Source: a bacterium (lineage in GTDB: Bacteria; SM23-31; JAUVVT01). Taken from it: a stretch of 28,777 nt of DNA. The first letter of the stretch is position 1; each line of letters begins with the position of its first letter. Below the pieces are notes generated by a model. It did not search any database. It was not told the origin of the DNA and saw only the letters and a list, made by a program, of their open reading frames with translations. Where the stretch lies: assembly GCA_030616165.1 (NCBI GenBank), contig JAUWXV010000019.1:1-28777 (forward strand). The letters are read 5' to 3'. Positions 6,480 to 25,950 of this stretch are shown one piece after another. The translations under genes and the position numbers were made by a program.

Positions 6480-6552
6480 GTAGGGGCGAAGCATTTGAAG
6501 GAAGAGTTTTCAAAGGATTTAAGCAATAAACAAAAGAATGCTTCGCCCCTAC
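6480..6552. repeat. 73-bp palindromic element, copy 1
   Basis: Perfect 16-bp inverted arms GTAGGGGCGAAGCATT (6480-6495) and its complement (6537-6552) enclose a 41-bp core. An almost identical copy in the same orientation lies at 9267-9339, so the pair brackets the kinase gene. The arms resemble other palindromes in this window that end in CCCCTAC (15569-15594, 20571-20592). It looks like a small non-autonomous (MITE-like) or REP-like element; no transposase is near. Confidence 0.85.
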
Positions 6553-6574
6553 ACGAAAAATTAAAGGATTAATC

Positions 6575-9199
6575 ATGAACATCCAAATTGGGGAAGTAAT
6601 ATCACATTATCGGATTATCGAAAAACTCGGTGAAGGAGGAATGGGTGTAGTTTACAAGGCAGAGGATACAAAACTCAAGCGCACCGTTGCCCTCAAGTTC
6701 CTGCCGCCAGAGTTGACACGTGACGAAGAGGCAAAGGAACGATTCATCCGTGAGGCACAGGCTGCCTCTGCACTGGATCATCCCAACATCTGCACCATCT
6801 ATGAAATTAATGAGACTGAGGATGGACAGATGTTTATTGCAATGGCATTTTACAAAGGCGAGACCCTGAAGATTAAAATTGCGCGTGGACCTCTACCGGT
6901 TGAGGAGGCAGTTGACATTGCAATTCAAACTTCCCGGGGTCTGGCGAAGGCGCACGAGGAAGGGATTGTCCATCGGGACATCAAGCCAGCAAATATCATG
7001 GTGACGGATGAGGGCGTGGTGAAGATACTCGATTTTGGTCTTGCAAAGATAGCAGCGTCAATGCTGACAAAAGAAGGGACGACTTTAGGCACCGTTGCCT
7101 ACATGTCCCCTGAACAGGCACGCGGAGAAACCGTAGACCACAGGACGGATATCTGGTCGCTGGGAGCTGTAATGTACGAGTTGCTCACAGGTCAGCGATC
7201 CTCCAGAGGCGAGTATGAGCAGGCGGTAATGTATTCGATTATGAATGTAGACCCGGAACCCATCACAAACCTGCAGTCAGACGTACCAGCGGAATTGGAG
7301 CTGGTTGTCTTTAAGTCGCTGAAAAAAGAACCCGCTGAACGCTATCAGCATATTAAAGACATACTTCAAGAATTGAATGCAATCCGAGGAACAGAAGCCC
7401 CATCAAGTTCAGCTCAGCAGAAGATGCCTCCACAGAAAGCCCCATCGAAAAGACGAAGGATAACAATCGCCGCCCTGTTTGTGCTGGTACTTGTGGTTGG
7501 AACGGCTGTTCTCTACTTTAGGAATGGAGAGCCGGTTGCTCCTTCAGAGAGAAAGATGCTGGCGGTACTGCCGTTTGAGAATTTAGGGTCTCCCGATGAT
7601 GAGTATTTCGCCGACGGCATCACGGATGAGATTACGGCTCGGCTCGCGGGTATCGAGGAACTGGGTGTCATCGCTCGCACCAGTGCGATTCAGTACAAGA
7701 ACACCGATAAATCAATCCAGCAGGTCGGCGAAGAACTCGGTGTCGAGTATATCTTAGAGGGCACCGTCCGCTGGCAGCGCCTTTCCGAGGGACAAAGTCA
7801 GGTGCGTGTAACGCCCCAGCTTATCAGGGTCTCTGACGCTACGCACGTATGGGCGAACATCTACGATAAAGACATTGCCGACATCTTTCAGGTTCAATCC
7901 GACATTGCAGAACAGGTAGCAAAAGGATTAGGCATTGCCCTTCTTGAGCCGGAGCGCAGTGCACTGAAAGACAAGCCAACAGCCAATCTCGAGGCGTATG
8001 ACTACTACCTTCGCGGCAACGAATATGCTAGGAGAGGTGGCGAAAAGAACAAGAGGATTGCATTACAGATGTATCAAAAGGCTGTTGAGTTGGACCCCGA
8101 TTTCGCTCTGGCTTACGCTAGGTTATCAGGTACTCACACAGGTCTATATTGGAACCACTGGGACCGGACAGAGCAACGCCTATCAAAAGCAAAGGAAGCA
8201 GTTGACAGAGCGTTACAACTTAATCCTGATTTGCCCGAAGGGCATCTTGCATTAGGGAGATATCACTACCAAGGACGCCTGGATTATGACCGTGCCCTGA
8301 AGCAGTTCGATATTGTCCGGAAAAACAAGCCCAATAACGCCGAAATGTTAGCGTTTATTGGTTATGTTAAAAGGAGACAGGGTAAATTTGAGCAGGCATT
8401 AGAAAATATAAAGAAAGCTTCAGAACTTGATCCACTATCTGGATTCTTCTCCCAAGAACTTGGAAACACTTATCATCGAATACGCAACTATCCGGATGCG
8501 GAGCGCTACTATGACCGGGCTATCTCCCTGACTCCCGATTCACCCCTCCCCTATGCCTATAAGGCTCAAAACTATCTGAGATGGGAAGGCAGCACAGCAA
8601 AGGCACGTGCAGTTCTGGAGGAGGCTTCTCAGAAGGTCAGTTCAGCAGATGGCCCCTTTATTGTCTTCACCTGGGTCCTTCTTGATGTATTCGATGGGAA
8701 TTATCAAGAGGCGTTGGACAGACTATCTTCGGTATCGTCGGAAGTTTTTGAAATACAATTCTACTTTGTCCCCAAGGCACAACTATATGCCCAGATTTAT
8801 GGACTAATGGGAAACCAGAATCTCGAATATGCATATTACGACTCCGCAAGAAGCATTCTCGAGACTAAAGTCAAGGAAAGTCCGGAAGATGCGAGGTTCC
8901 ATAGTTCACTCGGCATCGCCTATGCAGGACTGGGCCGCAAGGAAGATGCAATCAGGGAGGGGAAGTTAGCGGTAGAATTGCTTCCTGTCAGCAAGGAGGC
9001 TATGCGAGGCGCCTATCGGGTTGAGGATTTAGCAGCGATTTATGCCATGGTCGGTGAACACGATGCCGCTGTCGAACAGTTGGCGCACCTGCTTTCTATT
9101 CCATCTCATATCTCAGTTCCTTTACTGCGGCTTGACCCTAAATGGGATGTCCTGCGCGACAATTCAAGATTCCAGAGGCTTTTAAAGAGAAGGAAATAG
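6575..9199 (+). CDS. Ser/Thr protein kinase with TM segment and TPR repeats
   Basis: An 874-aa Hanks-type kinase. The kinase domain (about residues 12-268) is intact: glycine loop GEGGMG (19-24), ATP-anchoring Lys41, HRDIKPAN with catalytic Asp135 and Asn140, DFG at 153-155, and SPE at 178-180. A basic linker and one membrane segment (about 297-315) follow. Next comes a domain beginning LAVLPFENLGSPDDEYFADG (about 329-455), as found in adenylate-cyclase/kinase-TPR fusions. Several TPR motifs (about 470-870) end the protein, probably outside the cytoplasmic membrane. It likely senses a signal through the TPR part and phosphorylates cytoplasmic targets that I cannot name. AAAGGA lies 9 nt before the ATG, just beyond the copy-1 repeat. 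Its base composition is visibly more GC-rich than the surrounding DNA, and it is bracketed by direct repeats. Confidence 0.93.
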   Translation: MNIQIGEVISHYRIIEKLGEGGMGVVYKAEDTKLKRTVALKFLPPELTRDEEAKERFIREAQAASALDHPNICTIYEINETEDGQMFIAMAFYKGETLKIKIARGPLPVEEAVDIAIQTSRGLAKAHEEGIVHRDIKPANIMVTDEGVVKILDFGLAKIAASMLTKEGTTLGTVAYMSPEQARGETVDHRTDIWSLGAVMYELLTGQRSSRGEYEQAVMYSIMNVDPEPITNLQSDVPAELELVVFKSLKKEPAERYQHIKDILQELNAIRGTEAPSSSAQQKMPPQKAPSKRRRITIAALFVLVLVVGTAVLYFRNGEPVAPSERKMLAVLPFENLGSPDDEYFADGITDEITARLAGIEELGVIARTSAIQYKNTDKSIQQVGEELGVEYILEGTVRWQRLSEGQSQVRVTPQLIRVSDATHVWANIYDKDIADIFQVQSDIAEQVAKGLGIALLEPERSALKDKPTANLEAYDYYLRGNEYARRGGEKNKRIALQMYQKAVELDPDFALAYARLSGTHTGLYWNHWDRTEQRLSKAKEAVDRALQLNPDLPEGHLALGRYHYQGRLDYDRALKQFDIVRKNKPNNAEMLAFIGYVKRRQGKFEQALENIKKASELDPLSGFFSQELGNTYHRIRNYPDAERYYDRAISLTPDSPLPYAYKAQNYLRWEGSTAKARAVLEEASQKVSSADGPFIVFTWVLLDVFDGNYQEALDRLSSVSSEVFEIQFYFVPKAQLYAQIYGLMGNQNLEYAYYDSARSILETKVKESPEDARFHSSLGIAYAGLGRKEDAIREGKLAVELLPVSKEAMRGAYRVEDLAAIYAMVGEHDAAVEQLAHLLSIPSHISVPLLRLDPKWDVLRDNSRFQRLLKRRK

Positions 9200-9266: not shown

Positions 9267-9339
9267 GTAGGGGCGAAGCATTTGAAGGAAGAGTTTTCAA
9301 AGGATTTAAGCAATAAACAAAAGAATGCTTCGCCCTTAC
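9267..9339. repeat. 73-bp palindromic element, copy 2
   Basis: Same orientation as the copy at 6480-6552 and near-identical. The right arm differs by one base (CGCCCTTAC for CGCCCCTAC), breaking the perfect 16-bp pairing. It follows a CCGC..GCGG patch (9234-9264) that is another small palindromic repeat, giving a nested arrangement inside a truncated kinase start. Confidence 0.85.
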
Positions 9340-9408
9340 TCAAAAACCATTGTGCACTCAATGGCAGAGATTTGACCCATAATATTATCTAATTAAACGG
9401 AGCAAAAA

Positions 9409-15514: not shown

Positions 15515-15521
15515 ATGATGT

Positions 15522-15556
15522 TACGCCCTGTGTAATGAAACCCAGGGCGATCGATT
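15522..15556. repeat. CGCCCTGGGT hairpin repeat, copy 1
   Basis: TACGCCCTGTGTAATGAA then ACCCAGGGCGATCGATT. Arms of 10 bp (one mismatch in the left arm) flank the loop AATGAA. Further copies are at 15654-15688 and, as a right half, 15693-15721. Confidence 0.75.
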
Positions 15557-15568
15557 GGAAAACAAAGA

Positions 15569-15594
15569 GGGCGAACACATAGGTTCGCCCCTAC
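15569..15594. repeat. GGGCGAAC palindrome ending CCCCTAC
   Basis: GGGCGAAC (15569-15576) and GTTCGCCC (15583-15590) flank ACATAG, and CTAC follows. It belongs to the same loose family as the arms of the 73-bp element and the palindrome at 20571. Confidence 0.65.
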
Positions 15595-15653
15595 ATTTGG
15601 TTGAAAGAGATTATTTAGGACATTTTGTGGGAACACCTTCGCCAACAGAAATT

Positions 15654-15721
15654 TACGCCCTGGGTAATGAAACCCAGGGCGATCGATTAATTATGGGTAA
15701 TGAAACCCAGGGCGATCGATT
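15654..15721. repeat. CGCCCTGGGT hairpin repeat, copies 2 and 3
   Basis: Copy 2 (15654-15688) is perfect: CGCCCTGGGT, AATGAA, ACCCAGGGCG, then ATCGATT. Copy 3 (15693-15721) keeps GGGTAATGAA and the right arm with ATCGATT but lacks most of the left arm, as if produced by partial duplication. Confidence 0.75.
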
Positions 15722-15916
15722 TTTTTAATGGTTAGTAATGATATTTGGTTCTTCTCCAAATTAGTTGCAATAAAAAGATAAAAAATAATTAGTCGTCCCT
15801 GAAAAACATAGTTTTAAACTTCAAGACAGGGAAATAATTATGCAGTATTAACATTTCTTCGAAAATTGATGAAAACTGATAAAACGGTTTGACTTTTAAA
15901 GGGAAGCTTCTTTTTT

Positions 15917-15992
15917 CCCCTAACTAAAGTTAGGGGTTAATGATCCCCTAACTAAAGTTAGGAGTTAATGATCCCCTAACTAAAGTTAGGGG
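15917..15992. repeat. Three tandem 28-bp palindromic units
   Basis: Units begin at 15917, 15945 and 15973. Each contains CCCCTAACTAAAGTTAGGGG, a palindrome with 9-bp arms (last arm base altered once in unit 2), separated by the 8-bp spacer TTAATGAT. Each could fold as a hairpin on either strand. Confidence 0.85.
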
Positions 15993-16034
15993 TTAATAAG
16001 CCATAGGCTTATTAATAAGCCTGAGGCTTATTAA
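15993..16034. repeat. Two adjoining TTAATAAGCC hairpins
   Basis: TTAATAAGCC-ATA-GGCTTATTAA (15993-16015) and TTAATAAGCC-TGA-GGCTTATTAA (16012-16034) have perfect 10-bp arms and share four bases. They directly follow the 28-bp array. Confidence 0.8.
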
Positions 16035-16138: not shown

Positions 16139-17343
16139 ATGAAAACAAAAAATATTTCTTCAAGAGAACGGATGCTGTCGGTTTTAAATTTTCAGGAACC
16201 CGATTATATCCCCTGCTGTTTTATGATATTTACTGCTTTGAGAAATCGGTGTAAGAATGAATATGATTTTATTGAGCGGCAGTTGGGACTTGGTCTTGAT
16301 GTGAGGGTAAATCTTCCCGAGTTTACACCCCGCTTTCATCGGGATGTATCGTTCAGAGAGTGGAAACACCATCCATCAGGAGAAAGATACCCGCTCATTA
16401 ATCGCGAGTATCTGACGCCAGAGGGGGTTCTTTCTGCGGCTGTAAGGAAGGTTGAAGATTGGCCCCACGGTGACCATCTTCCACTGTTTGATGATTATGT
16501 CACTCCGCGGTCTGAGAAATTTCTGATCACAGAAAAATCCGATTTGATAAAGTTAAAATATCTGCTTTTACAACCATCAAATAAAGAGATACGCACATTT
16601 CGAAAAGAATCAAAAATGATAAAAGAATTTGCTTCTGATAAAGGTCTTCTTGTCTGCGGCGGCTGGAACTCATGGGCAAAGAGAAAAGACGATGAAATTT
16701 ATGGACTGATTACGGGACTATGGGAATAGATGCGCTGATGTGGCTCTGCGGGGCTGTGAAACCTCTTTACTGGGCTTATGATGAATCCGATTTTCTCGAA
16801 GAATTAATTGAAATGATTGCCGTCTGGAATAGAAAGAGAATGGAGATATATCTCGATGAAGGCGTTGATTTATTAATAAAAAGAGCATGGTATGAAAGCA
16901 CGGATTTCTGGTCACCTGCACTGTATGAGCGTTTTATAGCACCAGTATTGAAAAAAGATGTCGAATTGACACACCAGGCAGGAGCGAAGTTCGGATATAT
17001 TATAACCAGCGGGATGATGCCGCTTATGGAGAATTTTATCGATATTGGTATAGATGTTATAATTGGAGTTGACCCGGTTCAGGGCAGGGGAACCAACCTT
17101 AGTATTTTAAAGGAAAAAGCAAATGGTAAGGTCTGCCTCTGGGGAGGGATAAACGGATTTTTAACAGTAGAGAAGGGAACGGAGGACGAGGTTAGATATG
17201 CCGTTGAAAATGCTTTAAAGATTCTTTCAAAAAAGAGCGGATTTATACTCTCGCCTGTGGATAACGTAACAGAAGATGCAGAAATCACGTGGAGAAATGT
17301 GGATGTACTTATCAAAACATGGAAAGGTTTTAGAGGTGGATAA
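16139..17343 (+). pseudogene. Uroporphyrinogen decarboxylase (URO-D)-like protein, frameshifted
   Basis: Two overlapping ORFs (16139-16729, 196 aa; 16720-17343, 207 aa) together cover one URO-D-family protein of about 400 aa. The first half has the usual N-terminal RERMLSVLNFQEPDYIP. The second holds the barrel core with IKRAWYESTDFWSPALYERFIAPVLK, AGAKFGYIITSG, GVDPVQGRGTNLSILKE, CLWGGING and a C-terminal GFILSPVDNVT. The second ORF is in the -1 frame, and the join falls at ATGGGAATAG, with the stop inside the overlap. One missing base near 16720 would restore the gene. No slippery sequence is visible there, so an inactivating indel or sequencing error is more likely than programmed recoding. 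This family includes many non-haem members (methyltransferase-like) found near sugar genes; the true substrate is unknown. No Shine-Dalgarno precedes the first ATG. Confidence 0.8.
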
Positions 17344-17433: not shown

Positions 17434-17473
17434 ATATCTTATTCATCCCGAATATTCGGGATGAATAAGATAT
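17434..17473. repeat. Perfect 40-bp palindrome
   Basis: Left half ATATCTTATTCATCCCGAAT and right half ATTCGGGATGAATAAGATAT are exact complements with no spacer. The core ATCCCGAATATTCGGGAT recurs at 25919-25936, so this is an extended member of that repeat. Confidence 0.9.
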
Positions 17474-17796: not shown

Positions 17797-17839
17797 ATAA
17801 GATTAGTTTAAGAAAATGTAAAAAGATTTAAAAAAATAC

Positions 17840-17868
17840 TTGACAAATTAATAATTTTTACCGATATT
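17840..17868 (+). promoter_or_regulatory. Sigma-70-like promoter for candidate RNA
   Basis: TTGACA (17840-17845), 17-bp spacer, GATATT (17863-17868); a TATTAT lies 2 bp further on. Predicted start is near 17875, a few bases before the first hairpin. Confidence 0.45.
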
Positions 17869-17874
17869 ATATAT

Positions 17875-17960
17875 GAAAAAAATAGACCCAACCTCGAAAG
17901 AGAAAAAAGGGTCTAAAAAAATACAGGCCCAACCCCGAAAGGGAAAATAGGGCCTTTTTA
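17875..17960 (+). ncRNA. Candidate small RNA: two tandem covarying GAAA hairpins
   Basis: Two 31-nt hairpins (17884-17914 and 17925-17955) share one architecture: outer stem, AAC internal loop, inner 3-bp stem capped by a CGAAAG-type loop, then an A-rich internal loop. Outer stems are AGACCC/GGGTCT and AGGCCC/GGGCCT; inner stems CTC/GAG and CCC/GGG. Every change between the units keeps base pairing, which indicates selected RNA structure or duplication with conserved folding. The second hairpin is followed by TTTTTA and can act as a terminator. A promoter lies just upstream. On the minus strand the same DNA could terminate the NYN cassette. It matches no RNA family I recognise. Confidence 0.5.
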
Positions 17961-18512
17961 TTTATCTTTTTTCAGTCTTACTTCATTAGCAATATCATCA
18001 ATTATCAAAAGTCTATCACAATTATTTTTAAGGTCCGGAGAAAGAGAACTCCTAAACGCTACAATCTCTATTCTTTTACCTAAATCCATAACTGTTTTTA
18101 CTGCTTCCACATAATCACCATCACCACTTATAATTACACCCAGTTCAAAAGCATTTTGATAAGCCATTTTTAATAGCATTGTTGCAAGGGAAACATCGAC
18201 ACCTTTCTCTTTTGGTTTTCCTTTATCGTAATGTAATTCTTTGGTTATGACTACTATTCCAAAATGTTTAAGTTTATCATAAAATTTAATTTGTGCTTCA
18301 GAAGGTCTTTTAGGGATTGAACCAAAATAATAAGCTCTAATTACATTTCTTTCAGAACTAATTATTGTAATAAGAGAATATATATCTATTTGCCATTCCT
18401 CTTTAATTATTTTCTCTGAATAAAATTTACTTGAATGAAATAAATTGCTTCCATCGATAAAAATCATAGTATTTGGTTTAGATATTACACCAAAACTTTG
18501 AAATATTCCCAT
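17958..18512 (-). CDS. NYN-domain (LabA/DUF88-like) putative RNase
   Basis: A 184-aa protein with the PIN-like NYN fold. Acidic metal-site motifs are in place: FIDGSN with Asp20 and Asn23, KGVDVSLA with Asp106, and SGDGDY with Asp131 and Asp133. The family is thought to cleave RNA; the target is unknown. It has no signal peptide or membrane segment and so is cytoplasmic. AAGGAG lies 7 nt before the ATG. It is the last gene of a minus-strand cassette after two very small ORFs and two membrane-associated proteins, and ends 2 nt from the tandem hairpins. Met16 is a possible shorter start (MIFIDGSN is the usual opening), but the Shine-Dalgarno supports the longer form. Confidence 0.85.
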   Translation of the reverse strand: MGIFQSFGVISKPNTMIFIDGSNLFHSSKFYSEKIIKEEWQIDIYSLITIISSERNVIRAYYFGSIPKRPSEAQIKFYDKLKHFGIVVITKELHYDKGKPKEKGVDVSLATMLLKMAYQNAFELGVIISGDGDYVEAVKTVMDLGKRIEIVAFRSSLSPDLKNNCDRLLIIDDIANEVRLKKDK

Positions 18513-18813: not shown

Positions 18814-19314
18814 TTAATCTTCTAATATATCCTCAAATTTGACTTTTTTACTTTTAAATTTTTTCCCTGAATTATCTTCTTTAAATCTAAATCGGATTTT
18901 TTTACCAGAACCTATTTTCTTCCATTCATTTTTATCAGTAATTTTTTTACCTTTAATTTTAAAGACAAAAGATATAACTTCTCGTTGTTTAGGTTGTAAT
19001 TTAATGTCTTCTGGACGAACAATTAACCACTTGTTATATGATTTAACTAATTCTACATCATCAAATTCCACATCATAATCACGAACTGTTATAAGCATCA
19101 GACCTTTATTATTAAAATGAACTATCAATTTCAATAGTATTTCATTAATATCCTTAAATTCATTTGGTTCAGGCAATCTGAGTTTTTTAATGGATAATTT
19201 TACAGAATACCTACCTCTGAAATAAGTTATAATAAAAGTCAAAATAACAATAAAAAGAGTAATAACAGATATGATTAATCGCCAATCTATTTTTAAAAGC
19301 AAGTTATAATCCAT
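18814..19314 (-). CDS. Membrane-anchored hypothetical protein
   Basis: A 166-aa protein with one N-terminal hydrophobic segment (about residues 12-32) followed by a soluble, basic region. The soluble part is rich in alternating hydrophobic strands (for example IVHFNNKGLMLITVRDYDVEF and VISFVFKIKGK), suggesting a beta-sandwich-like domain; no family is recognised. There is no clear Shine-Dalgarno before the ATG. It lies 51 nt after the 316-aa membrane protein and 2 nt before a 36-aa ORF. The lysine-rich C-terminal end (GKKFKSKKVKF) could contact nucleic acid or lipids, but this is a guess. Confidence 0.6.
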   Translation of the reverse strand: MDYNLLLKIDWRLIISVITLFIVILTFIITYFRGRYSVKLSIKKLRLPEPNEFKDINEILLKLIVHFNNKGLMLITVRDYDVEFDDVELVKSYNKWLIVRPEDIKLQPKQREVISFVFKIKGKKITDKNEWKKIGSGKKIRFRFKEDNSGKKFKSKKVKFEDILED

Positions 19315-19365
19315 TTTTTTACTATTATTATATTTTATCTGATTTCGCTTTAAAATATCTGCTTA

Positions 19366-20316
19366 TTAATTAGATATATCTAATTTCTCATATCCAGTCG
19401 ATTTGTTAAGAAAATAAGAAGCTGTTTGGAAAGGATAGCTCCTTGCAGCTTCCTTGAAATTTCTCGGAGAATGATTTTTGTCACCATAGAATCTTATATT
19501 CATAGCTCTAAGGCCTTTATACTTATTTTTGTATATTGCAACTATTTCATTAAGCTTATCTTTTTCTTTGTATGGAGTATAAACAAAAAAAGAAATATAG
19601 TTATTTCCAACCTGTTTTCCTATTTCTTCATATTCTAAGGTGCTTCCTGTTATTCTTTTTCTTTCAGCTGCAAGTCTTTCTTTTTTCATTTTATCTGCTA
19701 ATTTTTTCGAATAATAGTTAAATTTAGTCTTATATTTAGGATTATCAGGATAAAGTGAAAGTAATTCTTGATATAGTATTTTATTTTCTTCTAATTTACT
19801 TGCTGGTATAGTCTTAAGTTCCTTTAGAATTTCTTGAGACCTTTCTTTCTTTCTAATTTCTTCCAGCTTGGTTTTTGCGAGCTTATTAAATTCTGATAAT
19901 TCATGGTCATCGCTTACGAGGTCGAGGTATTTATTTGTTTCGGAAATAACTTGTTGATAATTATTATTATCGTATGCTAACTGAATTTCTTCTAATATAA
20001 TAGATTTATTGGCTTTAAAACGAGTAATTTGTTCCTGAAGTTTTTTTTCAGCGAGTAGTTTTTCTTTTTCATGATGACTAATGCCTGTAAGCACACTAAA
20101 TAATACTAATAACACTAATATTGAAATGAGTCGTGCTTTCACTGATAAAGATTTTCCTGTTTTTTCGGATACATATTCTCTAACTGGAGGGAGTAGAAAA
20201 AGGGATATAGCTATTAAGGGTATGGCTGGAACTGGATCAATGAAAAGAGATATAACACCTGCCAAACTAAAAAGCACGCCAAATACCCAATTTAATGTTA
20301 GAAATAAATACTTCAT
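19366..20316 (-). CDS. Hypothetical membrane protein with coiled coil/TPR-like region
   Basis: A 316-aa protein. Two hydrophobic segments at the N terminus (about 5-45, likely a hairpin, with proline-rich DPVPAIPL between) and a third at about 62-80 are followed by a charged coiled-coil-like stretch (about 82-110). A helical-repeat region (SIILEEIQLAYDNNNYQQVI..., then LYQELLSLYPDNPKYKTKF) covers about 110-215, and a C-terminal domain of about 90 residues contains FVYTPYKEKDKLNEI and IRFYGDKNHSPRNF. I have seen the helical-repeat pattern in unrelated uncharacterised proteins but cannot name a family. GAAGG lies about 9 nt before the ATG. It is the first gene of the minus-strand cassette that ends with the NYN nuclease. 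Confidence 0.7.
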   Translation of the reverse strand: MKYLFLTLNWVFGVLFSLAGVISLFIDPVPAIPLIAISLFLLPPVREYVSEKTGKSLSVKARLISILVLLVLFSVLTGISHHEKEKLLAEKKLQEQITRFKANKSIILEEIQLAYDNNNYQQVISETNKYLDLVSDDHELSEFNKLAKTKLEEIRKKERSQEILKELKTIPASKLEENKILYQELLSLYPDNPKYKTKFNYYSKKLADKMKKERLAAERKRITGSTLEYEEIGKQVGNNYISFFVYTPYKEKDKLNEIVAIYKNKYKGLRAMNIRFYGDKNHSPRNFKEAARSYPFQTASYFLNKSTGYEKLDISN

Positions 20317-25918: not shown

Positions 25919-25936
25919 ATCCCGAATATTCGGGAT
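25919..25936. repeat. ATCCCGAATATTCGGGAT palindrome
   Basis: Perfect 18-bp palindrome; the same core is the centre of the 40-bp palindrome at 17434-17473. Confidence 0.85.
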
Positions 25937-25950
25937 GATTTATAGTTTTT

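Follow-up and report, generated by a model that had tools for sequence, protein, structure and literature searches.

A probable structured small RNA gene convergent with, and most likely paired with, a gene for a predicted NYN-domain ribonuclease

Results

Layout of the locus

The window, meaning the whole 28,777-nt stretch of bacterial DNA that was analysed, was studied around a segment for which a preliminary description had proposed a small RNA made of two tandem hairpins. The features of this segment and of the adjoining gene are listed below.

17836-17873, plus strand: predicted promoter of the small RNA (sRNA), TACTTGACA (-35), 17-nt spacer, CCGATATTATA (-10 region)
17884-17914, plus strand: hairpin 1, AGACCC AAC CTC GAAA GAG AAAAAA GGGTCT
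17925-17955, plus strand: hairpin 2, AGGCCC AAC CCC GAAA GGG AAAATA GGGCCT
17955-17966, plus strand: T-rich tail of the sRNA terminator, read from the sequence and overlapping the NYN stop codon
17958-18512, minus strand: gene for a NYN-domain (LabA/DUF88-like) predicted RNase of 184 aa (PF01936, E 1e-26), convergent with the sRNA

The promoter boxes are TTGACA at 17840-17845 and GATATT at 17863-17868 on the plus strand, separated by 17 nt. The element TTGACA-N17-GATATT (17840-17868) is sigma-70-like, with matches at 10 of 12 positions, and was the best promoter-like site on the plus strand near the hairpins; across the whole region, the count of promoter-like sites was no higher than in shuffled sequences. 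Transcription of the sRNA is predicted to start at approximately 17874-17876. Between the promoter and the terminator lie the hairpins alone. Hairpin 2 is followed by the T-rich tail TTTTTATTTAT, and a 3' end within this tail would give a transcript of ∼85-90 nt. Both the promoter upstream of the hairpins and the T-run after them, as originally described, were therefore found in place.

In the protein encoded on the opposite strand, Asp20, Asn23, Asp106, Asp131 and Asp133 were invariant in 10 homologues. The NYN profile matched PDB entry 2qip with an E value of 7e-31, and the protein also matched two models of the PADLOC defence library, NYN and HEC-09. The fold and the conserved acidic active site identify the neighbour of the sRNA in the window as a NYN-domain protein with predicted ribonuclease activity.

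Structure and folding of the hairpins

Both hairpins contain a 6-bp outer stem, an asymmetric internal loop of 3 nt (AAC) against 6 A-rich nt, a 3-bp inner stem and a GAAA cap, which is an ordinary GNRA tetraloop. Together they form a direct repeat with units 41 nt apart. The elements reported to be common to the two 31-nt units (stem, AAC loop, GNRA-type cap and A-rich loop) were all confirmed, as were the stem bases reported to change in pairs, which are A-T to G-C at 17886/17912 versus 17927/17953 and T-A to C-G at 17894/17901 versus 17935/17942.

Hairpin 1 folded with an energy of -11.9 kcal/mol (z -4.3; 0 of 200 shuffles as good), hairpin 2 with -14.6 kcal/mol (z -2.2; 6 of 200 shuffles as good) and the pair with -26.5 kcal/mol (z -5.0; 0 of 200 shuffles as good). 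The energy of the region ranked ∼270 among the 11,478 85-mers of the window, where stronger palindromes abound. Since the fold energy is unexceptional in this setting, the weight rests on comparative evidence. The two units, being copies within a direct repeat, give no independent proof of covariation, which is supplied by a third copy in genome G004. In the window, hairpin 2 is likely to double as the intrinsic terminator of the sRNA.

A third copy beside a NYN orthologue

A covariance model was built from the two window units only and searched in 6 genomes of the phylum. This search, which the preliminary description had suggested, gave one clear further match at G004:C169:64668-64702 (minus strand, E 2.6e-4); all other matches had E values of at least 1. 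The G004 hairpin begins 20 nt past the stop codon of a NYN orthologue at G004:C169:64120-64632 (plus strand), the only close one in that genome, and the two are convergent as in the window. The orthologue had been placed by a NYN protein search, run separately, before the hairpin match. By a rough estimate, the chance of the hairpin match landing beside the NYN gene in this 5.3-Mb genome is of the order of 1 in 10,000.

The 15-nt core CAACCTCGAAAGAGA is identical in hairpin 1 and the G004 hairpin. The TACTTGA and CCGATATTATA boxes are also identical in G004 and equally spaced, the spacer between them having diverged, so that both boxes of the promoter are kept in the second genome. Smith-Waterman comparison of the intergenic regions gave a modest similarity, with 5 of 1000 shuffles scoring as high. 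When the three hairpins were aligned, standard pairs occupied 27 of 27 pair cells and two-sided changes were present in 3 of the 9 pairs, including a new change from C-G to U-A in the third sequence; sliding the partners by 1-3 columns as a control left 0 pairs with two-sided changes. In G004, G4 and U32 form a G-U pair when read on the sRNA strand, whereas the opposite strand would have C facing A there, a mismatch. As the G-U pair works only on the sRNA strand, this is likelier to be the functional one.

At the position of hairpin 2, G004 has an unrelated terminator hairpin followed by T8 on the sRNA strand, leaving one motif hairpin in G004 versus two in the window. The conserved plan thus appears to be promoter, motif hairpin and terminator, with the motif present twice in the window.

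Structure, promoter and NYN linkage are conserved in the second genome despite an identity between the NYN proteins of 48% over the matched part and 46% in the alignment. A functional RNA had been proposed from conserved shape with changed sequence, and the homologous structure beside an orthologous NYN gene in a second genome lends support to that proposal. In two genomes the locus combines a predicted promoter, a compensated structure, a terminator and the lack of a conserved ORF, as would a structured sRNA gene. Judged on these sequence features, 17840-17966 (plus strand) is very probably a real gene, encoding a structured, non-coding sRNA of ∼85-90 nt.

Neighbouring ORFs and repeats

Upstream of NYN and on its strand, ORFs of 166 and 316 aa occupy 18814-20316 (minus strand); neither had a match in Pfam, NCBIfam, PHROGs or PADLOC. 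The C-terminal half of URO-D (PF01208) is matched by just one of two overlapping ORFs at 16139-17343, the second, which suggests that the URO-D gene is split or frame-shifted. On the G004 side, an ORF of 203 aa and unknown family (L038 1452-2063) stops 12 nt short of the listed start of NYN and has no homology to the window genes upstream of NYN.

Several repeats were observed elsewhere in the window. A perfect 40-nt palindrome of two 20-nt arms lies at 17434-17473, and its core ATCCCGAATATTCGGGAT recurs at 25919-25938; it is possibly a dispersed repeat or a terminator element. Copies of an 80-nt element, 96% identical, flank an 874-aa ORF (6575-9199) at 6480-6559 and 9267-9346. The element has inverted-repeat ends, GTAGGGGCGAAGCATTT...AATGCTTCGCCCCTAC, and looks like a MITE-type repeat. 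Three tandem palindromic units of TCCCCTAACTAAAGTTAGGGG with 28-nt spacing at 15916-16002 form the strongest-folding region of the window, and TTACGCCCTGGGTAATGAAACCCAGGGCGATCGATT is repeated in three copies at 15521-15721.

Distribution of the RNA and the NYN subfamily

G000 and G004 have both the RNA and this NYN subfamily, and G001, G002, G003 and G005 have neither, the latter four assemblies being 63-83% complete. A profile of the two NYN proteins, used at E ≤ 1e-25, matched only G000 and G004 among 386 genomes. The unit pattern found no locus in its own genome besides the 17840-17966 region. RNA model R2 found no credible copy outside the phylum in 386 diverse genomes; its four matches had E values of 0.002-0.04, at chance level or below, and the best of them falls within the coding sequence of an rsmI-like gene. 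R2 gave four weak matches among 111 genomes from another phylum, the one with the next-nearest NYN proteins; none adjoins a NYN gene, and the two of these loci that were examined are both in coding sequence. The check suggested at the outset, for copies next to other NYN genes, was positive at the G004 orthologue, while R2 had no match at the flanks of ∼40 other NYN genes.

DNA patterns searched in viral_contigs and genome_contigs gave chance matches only, the G004 contig excepted. The NYN protein was not found in the phage collection. Plasmids contained distant NYN proteins only (≤33% identity among the matches listed), and no sRNA-NYN DNA was found in them.

The flanks of the pair differ between the two genomes, with a superoxide dismutase-like gene (read from its translation) in G004 versus URO-D in the window, and the genes upstream of NYN are unrelated. 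With unrelated genes around them in the two genomes, sRNA and NYN behave like a single unit. The main rival explanation is that the sRNA is real, trans-acting or housekeeping, and has nothing to do with NYN, the adjacency being a product of joint inheritance. Consistent with this, the sRNA comes with a promoter and terminator of its own, a convergent layout needs no co-regulation, and the linkage is backed by two genomes only. The pair nevertheless stays together while all other flanking genes differ, and each of the 6 genomes has either both RNA and NYN or neither. Independence of the two genes is accordingly considered rather unlikely and a functional link between them probable. The sRNA and the convergent gene for the predicted NYN RNase most likely form a two-gene module.

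Antisense, terminator and peptide alternatives

A convergent antisense regulator resembling those of type I toxin-antitoxin (TA) systems would bind the NYN mRNA at its 3' end by base pairing and regulate the stability or translation of that message. In both genomes the NYN stop codon falls within the 3' end of the sRNA, and read-through transcripts of NYN would be fully complementary to the sRNA. The overlap in the window, however, amounts to only a few nt, and loops kept constant, stems with compensated changes and the G-U pair would not be needed for antisense pairing alone. The type I systems TxpA/RatA and BsrG/SR4 share with the locus a convergent sRNA that overlaps the 3' end of the neighbouring gene; their toxins are small hydrophobic peptides and their antisense overlap is long. 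Antisense control of this kind is regarded as improbable.

A low probability is likewise given to a mere (bidirectional, tandem) transcription terminator between convergent genes. In the window, T7 follows both hairpins on the NYN strand and T5 follows hairpin 2 on the plus strand, as such a terminator would predict. Were this arrangement conserved, T-runs would be seen on both strands of G004 as well, whereas its NYN strand is without a T-run after either hairpin and the conserved hairpin 1 is without one on either strand; only on the sRNA strand at hairpin 2 are T-runs found in both genomes. Identity of the loops, conservation of the promoter and the G-U pair would also be left unexplained. 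That the pair might prove to be only a bidirectional terminator had been raised at the outset, and the G004 NYN strand argues against it.

A gene for a small peptide read from a leaderless message (MKKIDPTSKEKKGSKKIQAQPRKGK, 25 codons from the ATG at 17873) is highly improbable. The window does have an open frame whose ATG lies at the predicted start. However, the repeat units are spaced 41 nt apart, a distance not divisible by three, so that the second is read in another frame; in G004 this frame lacks an ATG, GTG or TTG after the promoter, and the tail it encodes is unrelated; and the changes follow base pairing, not codons.

Comparison with known RNAs and systems

Rfam 15 gave no match in the window at the gathering threshold. 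At E values up to 5 there were sub-threshold chance matches only (for example rimP, AaHKsRNA20 and LhrC), and RF03085 was absent, so that the original statement that no known family matches stands at gathering and relaxed thresholds alike.

The closest described arrangement is that of AbiF and its antitoxin RCd22, a ncRNA of ∼100 nt that has its own sigma-70-type promoter and terminator, neutralises the neighbouring protein and carries two copies of a hairpin motif at positions 9-41 and 61-95 (PMC12373285). The window locus resembles it in that the putative ncRNA is served by a separate promoter and terminator, a small hairpin motif occurs twice (at ∼9-40 and 50-81 of the predicted transcript) and a gene for a predicted RNase stands directly alongside, as the toxin gene does for RCd22. 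It differs in that the nuclease is NYN, not Abi_2, and the AbiF family RF03085 is unmatched. RCd22 is also upstream and co-oriented, whereas the window RNA is downstream of NYN and convergent.

Type III TA systems (ToxIN, CptIN, TenpIN) similarly have a repeat-bearing RNA gene adjoining an endoribonuclease gene. Their antitoxin repeats are pseudoknots that lie upstream of, and co-oriented with, the gene for a ToxN-fold toxin (ToxN, CptN or TenpN). The window and G004 instead have one or two nested hairpins and a convergent NYN-fold gene, assigned to NYN by Pfam.

In Bacteroides fragilis, a Cmr NYN RNase acts on crRNA, a structured small RNA of its own locus (PMC11346440); the window is alike in having a predicted NYN RNase gene and a putative structured small RNA at one locus. 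No CRISPR array or cas gene was seen in the neighbourhood examined, and the two hairpins, spaced 41 nt, do not constitute such an array.

Discussion

Nucleases of the NYN/LabA-like type are very common among bacteria and, to our knowledge, little is understood of what keeps most of them in check. One NYN protein associated with CRISPR cuts ssRNA internally, in a Mn2+-dependent manner and without sequence specificity (PMC11346440), and a nonspecific ssRNA endonuclease of the NYN type needs restraint. Within the proposed two-gene module, the NYN RNase would bind the sRNA as its partner, by way of the conserved faces of the AAC, GAAA and A-rich loops. The sRNA may act as an RNA inhibitor, either as an antitoxin or as a decoy, holding the nuclease inactive, and the nuclease would be freed when the RNA is lost or consumed, as with RCd22 for AbiF and ToxI for ToxN.

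The inhibitor mechanism is drawn by analogy and is tentative, though it is the favoured guess at the function of the RNA. The whole reading, comprising the sRNA gene, the module with NYN and the inhibitor role, is seen as possible, with a likelihood a little short of even. Against an inhibitor, the RNA gene is not upstream and co-oriented, unlike those of type III TA systems and AbiF; NYN homologues in other phyla occur without the RNA, so that most NYN proteins manage without it; and convergent genes could stay side by side although there is no functional interaction between them. A literature search found no pair of a NYN domain with an RNA antitoxin. It is more doubtful that the hairpin repeats constitute a new RNA family devoted to inhibiting a NYN-fold ribonuclease encoded convergently, or to acting as its antitoxin, in an RNA-protein TA or defence module of a kind absent from the literature searched.

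If the inhibitor reading is true, RNA-controlled nucleases would extend beyond ToxN, CptN, TenpN and AbiF to the NYN fold. The RNA would be a new family from a phylum represented here by six genomes, and an RNA gene conserved beside NYN would give a testable handle on how the nuclease is restrained.
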